Assembly (NCBI RefSeq): GCF_900107665.1
Contig: NZ_FNQT01000002.1
Coordinates: 64,286 to 128,285, forward strand
From: Haloplanus vescus
Lineage (GTDB): Archaea; Halobacteriota; Halobacteria; Halobacteriales; Haloferacaceae
Direction: 5' to 3'
Length of the DNA: 64,000 nucleotides
Position 1 is the first letter of the stretch, and each line of letters opens with the position of its first letter. The position numbers and the translations under genes are program-made. Under the pieces are notes generated by a model. The model ran no database searches and had not been told where the DNA came from. It saw only the letters and a program-made list of their open reading frames with translations. Below are positions 42,539 to 47,908 of this stretch, piece after piece.

Positions 42539-42639
42539 GTCTCACGGGTACGATTGGGGGTCCGATAAGCTGTCTGGATGGCGGATGTGTGCCTCGTCCG
42601 ACCGGCAGTATATGGTCGTGTAGTGTGTACACATCCAGC

Positions 42640-43812
42640 ATGGCTATCGCCCGTCACGGCACCGGGCCGCGTGCGGCCCTCGGCGCCGTCGCCTCGCAGG
42701 TCCACCCGGTGTTCATGGCGCCGCCGCTGGCCGCGTCGGGATTCGGCGCCGTCCTCGGCGGGTTCGGGCGCCCGCGACTCGCGTTCCTCCACCTCGCCGT
42801 CGCCTTCTGTGCCCTCTACACCGCTCACGTCAAGGACGGCCTCGTCGACTTCTATCGGCGCGACGAGGACGACGACCACCCGCTGACGCGGCAGGGCTGT
42901 CGCGTCGCCATCGCCGCCTCGACGACGTGCTTTTTCCTCGGCCTCGCCGCCCTCGCCGTCCTCGTCGACCCGATTGCCGCCCTCCTCGCGCTCCCGGGGT
43001 GGGTGGTGGCCGTCTGTCACGCCCCGCAGCTCGACACCAATCCGCTGGGGGCGACGCTCGGCTACCCCGTCGGCATCGGCGTCGCCCTCCTCGGCGGCTA
43101 CTACGTGCAGATGCGGGCGCTCTCGACGGCTGCCGTCGCCTTCGCCGCCGTCTTCGTCGTCGTCCTCGCGGGCATCAAAGTCGTCGACGACGCCACCGAC
43201 CACGACTACGACCGCTCCATCGGGAAACGGACCGTGGCCGTCGTCCTCGGGCGCCGCGACGCGCGCCGCCTCGCCGGTGGCCTGATGGGTGCGGGGATGG
43301 CCGCCGTCGCCGCCCTCGCCGTCACCGGCGTCGTCCCGCGCGGGTCGGCGCTCGCCGTGGTCCCGTTCCTCGCCGTCGCCGTCGTCGCCCGCCGGGCCGA
43401 CGCCGGCCTCGCGACCAAGCTCCTCGTCCGCGCCTCGTATCTCTTCTTCGCGTTACTCGTCCTCGCCGTCTGGCTCCGACCGCTCGCGGGCCACGCTCTG
43501 CCGGACGTGACCCTTCTCGGCCCGTACACCTACCTCGCGACAGAGGTGCTGTGGGGCGCGGCGGCGCTGTTCCTCGTCGTCCGCGCCGACGCCCTGCGGG
43601 CCGCCGCGCGAACGACGGCGGTGCTCTACCCCTTCGCGTACGTCTGGGACTGGTACACCCTCTCCGTGGGCGTCTTCGCCATTCCGATGCGGACGGGCGT
43701 CGAACTGCTGGGGGTTCCGCTCGAAGAACACCTGTTCATGCTCGTGGTGCCGACGATGGTCGTCGGCGTTCACGAGACGCTTCGAAAATCCGGGCCGTGG
43801 ATAGGAGAGTAA
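42640..43812 (+). CDS. UbiA prenyltransferase fused to a lycopene-cyclase domain
   Basis: A 390-residue polytopic membrane protein from ATG 42640. Residues 1-285 look like a UbiA prenyltransferase: first acidic motif V-K-D-G-L-V-D-F-Y-R-R-D (66-75) and second motif V-V-D-D-A-T-D-H-D-Y-D-R (181-192), then G-K-R-T-V-A-V-V-L-G. Residues 290-380 look like one CrtYc/d-type lycopene-cyclase domain: Y-V-W-D-W-Y-T (334-340) and P-L-E-E-H-L-F (360-366). The combination suggests action on a carotenoid or related polyprene, like lycopene elongase plus cyclase. No crtB or crtI is in the window. Which activity survives is open. Confidence 0.75.
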   Translation: MAIARHGTGPRAALGAVASQVHPVFMAPPLAASGFGAVLGGFGRPRLAFLHLAVAFCALYTAHVKDGLVDFYRRDEDDDHPLTRQGCRVAIAASTTCFFLGLAALAVLVDPIAALLALPGWVVAVCHAPQLDTNPLGATLGYPVGIGVALLGGYYVQMRALSTAAVAFAAVFVVVLAGIKVVDDATDHDYDRSIGKRTVAVVLGRRDARRLAGGLMGAGMAAVAALAVTGVVPRGSALAVVPFLAVAVVARRADAGLATKLLVRASYLFFALLVLAVWLRPLAGHALPDVTLLGPYTYLATEVLWGAAALFLVVRADALRAAARTTAVLYPFAYVWDWYTLSVGVFAIPMRTGVELLGVPLEEHLFMLVVPTMVVGVHETLRKSGPWIGE

Positions 43813-45649: not shown

Positions 45650-46204
45650 CTAGTCGTCCCGCATCGCCAGCCCCGACAGGTGGCCCGCCTCGGGGACGAT
45701 GACTTCCTCGGCGCCGAGCGTCGCCGCGTTCTCGCTCCCCGGCAGGCAGAACACCGGCGTCCCGTCGACGACGCCGCCGACGGCCCGCGTGCCGACCACC
45801 TTCGTCCCGATTTCGTCGTACGAGAGTCGGCGGAACAGCTCCCCGAACCCGGGCAGGGTCTTGTCGAAGAGGGGGTCGGCGGCCTCGACGGTCACGTCGT
45901 CCGGCGTGACGCCCGTCCCGCCGGTGCTCACGACCACGTCCACGTCCTCCCGTCGCGCGAAGTCCTGGAGCGTCGACTGCACGCGGCCGTAGTCGTCCGC
46001 CACCAGTTCGCGCGCCGCCACCTCGTGGCCCTCGGCCTCGAACGCGGCGGCGATGGCGTCGCCCGCGGGGTCGTCGTCCAGCGTCCGCGACGTGGAGACG
46101 GTGACGATGCCCGCCCCGACCGTCTCGACGTCGTGGTGGTGATGGTCATGGTCGTCGTCGTGATGATGGTGATCGTGGTTGTCGTGATGGTGGTGGTCAC
46201 TCAT
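45650..46204 (-). CDS. moaB: MoaB/MogA-type molybdopterin protein with a natural His-rich N-terminus
   Basis: A 184-residue protein. The domain from about residue 27 is MoaB-like: [15 protein letters not shown] is the molybdopterin-binding loop, then [10 protein letters not shown] and L-P-G-S-E-N-A-A. It adenylylates or binds molybdopterin in cofactor assembly. Residues 2-25 are almost only His, Asp and Asn, with three H-H-H-H runs. Such a segment could hold Ni, Zn or Cu, or just be a slippage product; the His codons give a CAC/CAT-rich repeat in the DNA. It lies next to ilvD with no functional link. Confidence 0.92.
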
Positions 46205-46629: not shown

Positions 46630-46983
46630 ATGTTCGAAGAGTTCTCTGCGGGTTACTACCTCGGTCGACTGTACGTCGAACCCCACGACGGCGACCGGGC
46701 CGTCATCCACCAGACGGACCACGAACGGATGAACCGCCGGCTCTACGCCGACGGCGAGGGCGTCGAGCGACTTGACGCACCGCTCGTGATGAAACTCGAC
46801 GGGAAACACTTCCCGGTCCACGGCCGCGAGGGCGTCCCCTCCGGCACGCTGGGCCTCCCCCCGAGCGTCACCGACACGACGCTGCCCGACCGGTGTGAAG
46901 TGTTCCTCGCCAAACCGGACCGCGCCGCCGAGCTCCTTCGGTACGCGGGGTACGACGAGGGGCGCGCCCCCGAGGCCGTCTGA
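46630..46983 (+). CDS. DUF5802-like haloarchaeal protein
   Basis: A 117-residue soluble protein from ATG 46630; a GTG at 46618 would add four residues. A TATA-like CTTATACC (46593-46600) about 33 bases upstream favours a near-leaderless transcript starting at or just before the ATG. The sequence has F-S-A-G-Y-Y-L-G-R-L-Y-V-E-P at the start and M-K-L-D-G-K-H-F-P-V-H-G. I know this pattern as DUF5802; no function is assigned. 40 bases upstream of the Vms1-like gene, same strand. Confidence 0.72.
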   Translation: MFEEFSAGYYLGRLYVEPHDGDRAVIHQTDHERMNRRLYADGEGVERLDAPLVMKLDGKHFPVHGREGVPSGTLGLPPSVTDTTLPDRCEVFLAKPDRAAELLRYAGYDEGRAPEAV

Positions 46984-47023
46984 CCGCCGCAGGGTAGAAG
47001 GCGCCGGGCCTCGTCGGGGGCGT

Positions 47024-47908
47024 ATGCTCGATTCGTTGCTCGGACGCGCCGAACTCAAGGCGCGCATCGAGGAACTAGAAGAGGAAAAGCGCCACCTCGG
47101 ACGCCGCCTCGACGCGGAGAGCGAGCGCCGTTCGACCGCCGTCACCGCCAGACAGGAGGCCGAAGAGCGGGTCAACCGCCTCGAAGACCGCATTGCCGAT
47201 CTCGAAGGCCGTCTCGACGAGGAGCGCGAGGGAGCCGACCTCGCGCCCCGCGACACCGAGACGCTCCGCGGTGAACGCCTCGACGAGGTCCTCTCGCGCC
47301 TGCGAAGTGTCGAGACAGACCCCGAAGGGGCGCTGACGGCGATGGTCGACGACGACGTGCCCGAGGCGGTCGAAGACTGTCTCGGCGACCGGGCGACGCT
47401 CGTCGACCGCGCCGCTCCCTGTCTGGTCTGTATCGACGACGCGCGACTCGTGAGCGTCGCCCTCGCCCCGCCGCTCGCCCCCGACCCGTTCGTCGAGTGG
47501 GCCGACGGCTTCCGGGTCGACGACGACTGGTTTCACCCGCCGGACGGCCTCTCGGTCGCGCTGGTGCGCTCGGACCGCTTCGCCATCGGCGTTATCGAGG
47601 ACGGCAGTCTGACCGATATCGAGACAGTCGAGACGGACGTCAAGGCCAGCCACTCCAAGGGCGGCTTCTCGCAGTCGCGATTCGAGCGGCGACGCGACGA
47701 ACAGGTCGCGACCCACCTCGACGACTGCCGGGAGGTACTGGCGCGACGCGACCCCGACCGACTCGTCCTCCTCGGCGAGCGGACCGTCCTCGACGATTTG
47801 GACTGGTCGACCGTCGCCCGCGCGGCAGTCGACGCCAGCGGCCCACCCCGCGAGGCACTCTTGGACGCCCTCGACTCGTTTTTCACGACGCGACTGACGC
47901 TACTCTGA
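47024..47908 (+). CDS. Vms1/Ankzf1-like peptidyl-tRNA hydrolase
   Basis: A 294-residue protein from ATG 47024. Residues 1-70 form a coiled coil (A-R-I-E-E-L-E-E-E-K-R-H-L). The C-terminal 180 residues look like the eRF1-type VLRF1 domain: H-S-K-G-G-F-S-Q-S-R-F-E-R-R-R-D-E-Q, where the catalytic glutamine would lie, followed by L-V-L-L-G-E-R. In eukaryotes Vms1 releases stalled nascent chains from tRNA on 60S subunits; archaeal copies are predicted to do the same. The end overlaps the convergent glycosyltransferase gene by nine bases. Confidence 0.85.
   Translation: MLDSLLGRAELKARIEELEEEKRHLGRRLDAESERRSTAVTARQEAEERVNRLEDRIADLEGRLDEEREGADLAPRDTETLRGERLDEVLSRLRSVETDPEGALTAMVDDDVPEAVEDCLGDRATLVDRAAPCLVCIDDARLVSVALAPPLAPDPFVEWADGFRVDDDWFHPPDGLSVALVRSDRFAIGVIEDGSLTDIETVETDVKASHSKGGFSQSRFERRRDEQVATHLDDCREVLARRDPDRLVLLGERTVLDDLDWSTVARAAVDASGPPREALLDALDSFFTTRLTLL

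Follow-up and report, generated by a model that had tools for sequence, protein, structure and literature searches.

A divergent UbiA prenyltransferase fused to a single lycopene-cyclase half in Haloplanus vescus, part of a haloarchaeal two-part membrane module and a candidate substitute DGGGP synthase

The window analyzed here is a stretch of 64,000 nucleotides from Haloplanus vescus (G000:C2:64286-128285; source assembly of 2.78 Mb). An ORF at positions 42640-43812 of its forward strand, on which all features given below lie unless stated otherwise, is open from ATG to TAA and encodes a protein of 390 amino acids. Full-length homologues are found in 47 of 293 haloarchaeal genomes, and the closest named relative originates from a Haloplanus MAG. 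A preliminary description of this DNA had read the gene as a single-chain fusion of a UbiA prenyltransferase with one half of a lycopene cyclase, and domain searches bear this architecture out. The UbiA moiety (42736-43392; residues 33-251) matches Pfam PF01040 with 43.8 bits against a cut-off of 34.2, which places it in the UbiA superfamily. The conserved unit extends over residues 1-284, which is the length of the stand-alone version of this protein (homologues of 282-285 aa). It is followed by a short linker (43492-43506; residues 285-289) of low confidence in the AlphaFold model, with a pLDDT below 50 at residues 285-287, and the stand-alone UbiA ends at 282-285. The remainder is a single lycopene-cyclase half (43507-43791; residues 290-384) with three predicted membrane helices, related to PF18916 and TIGR03462. 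Upstream, a TATAT read from the sequence (42609-42613), some 29 nt 5' of the ATG, has a position that would suit a leaderless archaeal promoter. A scan for sigma-70-type promoters, a type of scan not made for archaeal promoters, found no match.

The UbiA domain displays the two Asp-rich Mg-diphosphate motifs that characterize its superfamily, both noted in the preliminary description, although the Asn of the first is replaced by Asp. Motif 1 (42835-42882), which reads D66-G-x-V-D70 ... E76-D77-x-D79-H80-P81, is invariant or nearly so in the alignment, while motif 3 (43186-43212; D183 D184 x x D187 x x x D191) is invariant. Accordingly, D66, D70, D183, D184, D187, and D191 are the same in all 21 aligned fusions, and so are H127, A128, P129, D132, and P135 at the position of motif 2 (43018-43044; H127-A-P-Q-L-D132-T-N-P). 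Compared with canonical enzymes, the DxxDxxxD of motif 3 is intact, the N of the NDxxDxxxD in motif 1 has become D, and the Y...K of motif 2 is replaced by H...D. Motif 1 N and the Y-x(4)-K of motif 2 are both part of the canonical DGGGP synthase motifs (PMC9385802).

As for the family to which this domain belongs, it scores below every NCBIfam cut-off. The best model is of the MenA type (36.8 bits, cut-off 264), followed by the canonical DGGGP synthase model NF009521 (27.5 bits, cut-off 296) and the LyeJ model NF009516 (18.3 bits, cut-off 205), and neither PRK13105 nor PRK13595 is matched, whereas the LyeJ of the same genome matches both. In a profile-profile comparison, the nearest families are MenA (DHNA polyprenyltransferase; E 7e-7) and DGGGP synthase (2.5e-6), ahead of CtaB (0.012) and of LyeJ, which is not significant at 0.035 with a profile built from six sequences only. 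Despite this local resemblance to MenA, the true MenA of the genome is a separate gene. LyeJ, for its part, shares with the fusion its superfamily, a similar length, and the same genome, but is likewise encoded separately, beside cruF and crtD. When the AlphaFold model was submitted to Foldseek, the best matches were UbiA enzymes, led by the DGGGP synthase of M. jannaschii (6m31/7bpu), with TM-scores of 0.74-0.77 depending on the target. These matches of a predicted structure back a UbiA fold rather than a particular substrate. The UbiA of this module is thus distinct from LyeJ, MenA, CtaB, and canonical DGGGP synthase, just as the module is distinct from CrtY.

Profile searches assign the half to the cyclase family, as the preliminary description had it, with borderline scores. 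Pfam Lycopene_cyc (PF18916) matches residues 296-380 with 27.0 bits, exactly at its cut-off of 27, and NCBIfam TIGR03462 (CarR_dom_SF) reaches 39.1 bits, 0.3 under its cut-off of 39.4. The marginal scores are nevertheless no accident, and the domain is real: ~100 relatives share 57-87% identity, the Tyr, Trp-Asp, and Glu-Glu-His residues are nearly invariant, and the half matches CrtY by profile. The two cyclase motifs singled out in the preliminary description hold up well: in W336-D337-W338-Y339 (43645-43656) the first two residues are found in 106 of 106 halves, and E362-E363-H364 (43723-43731) is kept in 105 of 106. The half matches both halves of the two-half CrtY encoded elsewhere in the genome (E 3e-8 and 3e-5), with D337 and E362/E363 falling at matching positions in the CrtY halves; family profile and conserved residues alike are those of a CarR/CrtYcd domain. 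In contrast to CrtYcd/CarR-type cyclases, the module has one half only, present as one copy in the chain and tied to a UbiA. The AlphaFold model, which realizes the modeling proposed earlier, shows three well-defined helices in the half (pLDDT 91) beyond the floppy linker; the pTM of 0.72 for the whole fusion makes the placement of the two domains relative to each other less certain. A fold search with the half alone returned no significant PDB match and hence no solved relative. Judged from its profiles and motifs, the protein is a member of the UbiA and CarR domain families, different from LyeJ/CrtEb and from canonical DGGGP synthase, any lycopene-cyclase activity being hypothetical.

The distribution of the domain pair, which the preliminary description had recommended checking, is wide within the order. 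The module is found in 240 of the 293 genomes (~80%), fused in 47 and otherwise encoded by two genes; most non-fusion genomes have a UbiA of 282-285 aa and, encoded on its own, a half that usually measures 98-137 aa. UbiA and half co-occur in 233 genomes, and one part is found alone in only seven, several of which are incomplete; in another draw of genomes, both genes were present in 27 of the 27 split genomes listed. In ~240 genomes from outside the order, the only match was a weak one to the UbiA region, and there was no clear homologue. Of 80 named loci, 43 have the two parts fused, 12 have them near each other (divergent, or on the same strand and down to 8 bp apart), and 25 show no linkage within the sequence covered. 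The fused state requires at least four changes on the UbiA tree, some deeper forks of which are weakly supported, and the Haloplanus fusion sits among split versions from Haloferacaceae. This near-strict co-occurrence, together with repeated fusion/fission, is strong evidence that the two parts are linked in function. The protein is therefore best described as the fused version of a membrane module that is specific to haloarchaea and has two parts, a divergent UbiA and one lycopene-cyclase-like half of three helices.

To our knowledge, there is one precedent for such an architecture, LbtBC of Dietzia. In LbtBC, an elongase of the UbiA superfamily is fused in frame to a single CarR-type cyclase subunit, and the protein, whose gene belongs to a carotenoid cluster, acts together with a partner half, LbtA (PMC6393565). 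By analogy with LbtBC plus LbtA, or with the actinobacterial CrtEb plus CrtYe/Yf, the fusion could elongate and/or cyclize lycopene to C50 cyclic carotenoids. The preliminary description raised cyclized, elongated carotenoids as a possible product, or else cooperation with another half protein, and the cyclase motifs are indeed intact. We regard this function as improbable in view of the rest of the genome. A crtB, cruF, lyeJ, and crtD cluster lies at ~389.5-393.6 kb of the contig that carries the fusion at 106.9-108.1 kb (crtB and crtD were called by reading and context), its LyeJ scoring 436 bits with NF009516, while rhodopsin, the two-half crtY, and blh form a second cluster (L007 156-2826; G000:C1 ~1316.5-1319.2 kb). 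Bacterioruberin and retinal synthesis are thus covered by these separate sets without the fusion gene, which cannot be the LyeJ of this genome as that gene is a separate one, and by profile the fusion UbiA falls outside the elongases. Moreover, no other half-cyclase match was seen in 12 of the 47 fusion genomes, in a search of limited sensitivity where true CrtY scores only ~18-31 bits. The second half of a two-half lycopene cyclase is thus not seen there, which also speaks against a partner half elsewhere as a general rule. An obligate LbtA-like partner is consequently unlikely, and a homodimer, or one half acting with the UbiA, fits better. The domain assignments and single-half fusion of the preliminary description were correct, and the carotenoid function that it suggested finds no backing.

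A second possibility, which concerns the half only and is compatible with any role of the UbiA, is that the half is a noncatalytic membrane adaptor or a lipid-binding subunit of the UbiA enzyme. It is single, partnerless in several genomes, and physically joined to the UbiA in many lineages, all of which would suit an adaptor, but we find this rather unlikely because W-D and E-E-H, which line up with the corresponding residues of the CrtY halves, are 99-100% conserved.

In agreement with the preliminary description, there is no carotenoid gene near the fusion, the nearest cluster being ~0.28 Mb away on the same contig, and no isoprenoid gene is found among its neighbors in the window. Upstream are genes for a family-III CoA transferase and an HMGL-type enzyme (both on the minus strand), and downstream are ilvD (minus strand) and then a gene for a molybdopterin-binding protein. 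The latter (45650-46204, minus strand) is MogA/MoaB-like, with a His/Asp-rich N terminus that may be a metal-binding tail, and a release-factor-like protein (acVLRF1, baeRF family 10) is encoded further downstream (46895-47908). Across relatives, the conserved neighbors of the module are only unrelated or lineage-syntenic genes (ilvD and the CoA transferase in the window; CBS-domain, trpD/trpF/trpE, GTPase, bactofilin-like, and UspA-like genes in other genomes), with no carotenoid or lipid gene among them.

A different function is suggested by the UbiA inventories. DGGGP synthase converts GGGP and GGPP to DGGGP and so makes the second ether linkage in the lipids of archaea, a step that defines their membranes. 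The enzyme has been reported for every archaeon sampled other than three DPANN bins, although Thaumarchaeota may lack the orthologue and may use another UbiA paralogue, which would be a precedent (PMC6431249). Among the 293 haloarchaeal genomes, 75 lack the canonical enzyme, including that of the window, and 70 of these 75 have the module (20 fused, 50 split); canonical enzyme and module coexist in 170 genomes, and 48 have the canonical enzyme only. The 5 genomes with neither compare with 13.6 expected if the two were independent (Fisher p = 0.003, kinship ignored), and four of the five are only 58-78% complete. The Haloplanus vescus genome encodes five UbiAs (CtaB, MenA, a DPPR-synthase-like protein, LyeJ, and the fusion), none of which is a canonical DGGGP synthase. 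CtaB, MenA, LyeJ, and the module are the only UbiAs in another genome of the same genus (G199), in G020, G059, and G103, and in Halomicrobium katesii, the classes in the G genomes being read from Pfam score and position. The inventories likewise show no canonical enzyme in Haloarcula amylolytica or Halogranum rubrum. The literature that we found does not note this gap in the 75 genomes, nor in named members of Haloarcula, Halomicrobium, and Halogranum.

Lipid data nonetheless show normal diethers in such lineages. GGGPS, which makes the acceptor, is encoded in 10 of the 10 genomes tested. Halomarina oriensis JCM 16495 (G206, L152), which lacks the canonical enzyme and has one further UbiA without an assigned class, has been shown to contain glycerol diether lipids (PMC10067837). 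Haloarcula argentinensis, a relative of H. amylolytica, makes C20:C20 archaeol (PMC10704169), and normal diethers are found in the genus (PMC10704169, PMC12189638). Since normal diethers are present in lineages without canonical DGGGP synthase, some enzyme must perform this step there, and the module UbiA is the obvious candidate.

We therefore propose, with a probability that we put at about 0.4, that the module is a substitute DGGGP synthase (GGGP + GGPP -> DGGGP). The two Asp motifs of the UbiA domain would hold Mg2+ together with a prenyl diphosphate, GGPP being the likeliest, and the domain would move the prenyl group onto a lipid acceptor. The half would dock in the membrane beside the UbiA, possibly as a dimer, where its conserved acidic side chains may help to bind the substrate or to transfer protons. 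Formation of the second ether bond would be the most likely reaction, because many module genomes are without the known enzyme and the module is the only UbiA left without a class in them. The module UbiA shares with canonical DGGGP synthase its fold, its Asp-rich motif 3, and its length, and its presence in genomes tends to complement that of the canonical enzyme. However, it scores far below the cut-off of the canonical profile, is fused to or accompanied by a cyclase half, and differs at the motif 1 N and at motif 2. Furthermore, in 170 genomes the module would have to be redundant or specialized alongside the canonical enzyme, no lipid gene is a conserved neighbor, and haloarchaeal core lipids are acyclic, which leaves a catalytic cyclase half without an obvious product in the DGGGP pathway.

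The anticorrelation with the canonical enzyme was also considered in a phylogenetic framework. A Pagel-type test of dependent evolution on a CruF tree, which is a single-gene tree of 83 chosen rather than randomly drawn genomes, went in the predicted direction but was not significant (LR 5.0, p = 0.29). In the fit, DGGGP synthase is lost only with the module present, and the module is lost about seven-fold faster when DGGGP synthase is present.

One genome that speaks against a substitute DGGGP synthase is G003 (L241, L303, L304, L375), a single contig of 2.7 Mb that is 99% complete, with neither the canonical enzyme nor the module. Its UbiAs are CtaB, MenA, and LyeJ only, and its sister group in the CruF tree is a clade that has the module but not the canonical enzyme. 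No DGGGP synthase gene is split across the contig ends, and the weak Pfam matches in G003, G075, and G209 look on inspection like non-UbiA membrane proteins (an M48-type protease in the case of G003) rather than hidden UbiAs. There must then be a third enzyme in G003, unless the gene was missed or is absent from the assembly. The sole GGGPS match in G003, at 418 aa, belongs to a divergent, long type that is also seen in G277 (424 aa). In G183, a weak UbiA Pfam match of 24.7 bits was left without a class.

That G003 manages without either enzyme would also suit a third explanation, namely that the module makes another prenylated, possibly cyclized membrane compound, such as a minor lipid, a quinone-like compound, or a glycolipid carrier, and that a separate enzyme makes DGGGP where the canonical one is absent. 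We hold this to be a serious possibility, though short of probable. The canonical enzyme is also present in 170 of the 240 module genomes, motif 2 of the UbiA departs from the canonical form, and the near-invariant, catalytic-looking half suggests a cyclization or protonation step. Conversely, a further DGGGP synthase would be needed in at least five genomes that have no other UbiA without a class, and we know of no candidate product.

If the module is indeed a substitute DGGGP synthase, haloarchaea would possess a second, non-orthologous enzyme for this step, a divergent UbiA with a recruited half, which would have replaced the classical one several times, the half having moved from carotenoid chemistry to membrane-lipid synthesis. 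We offer this evolutionary scenario only tentatively. The open-access literature that we found assigns no function to the module, which is the best candidate for the seemingly missing lipid enzyme in about a quarter of haloarchaea. Roughly a quarter of the 293 genomes are without a known DGGGP enzyme and nearly all of these have the module, so that a hole in a central pathway comes down to a single gene that can be tested. Should the lipid role prove incorrect, a pair kept together in ~80% of haloarchaea, with near-invariant residues of catalytic type, would still be a good target for study in organisms amenable to genetics, and an annotation like "lycopene cyclase domain" may mislead here as to the pathway.

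Several loci show further arrangements. Some haloarchaea, among them Haloplanus vescus (L003; G000:C7) and Haloarcula amylolytica (L307), have an accessory UbiA that resembles decaprenyl-phosphate phosphoribosyltransferase, with 214-219 bits, just under the cut-off. The chromosome of Halobaculum litoreum DT92 carries the fusion twice (L137 and L139), ~65 kb apart across the ends of the record, and one copy appears frame-disturbed. At L143, L172, L189, and L200, the UbiA and the half diverge from one short intergenic region. Finally, at L129, L149, L152, L178, and ~23 other loci, the unlinked half is often divergent beside a CBS-domain gene of ~380 aa, with tryptophan-biosynthesis genes often nearby.
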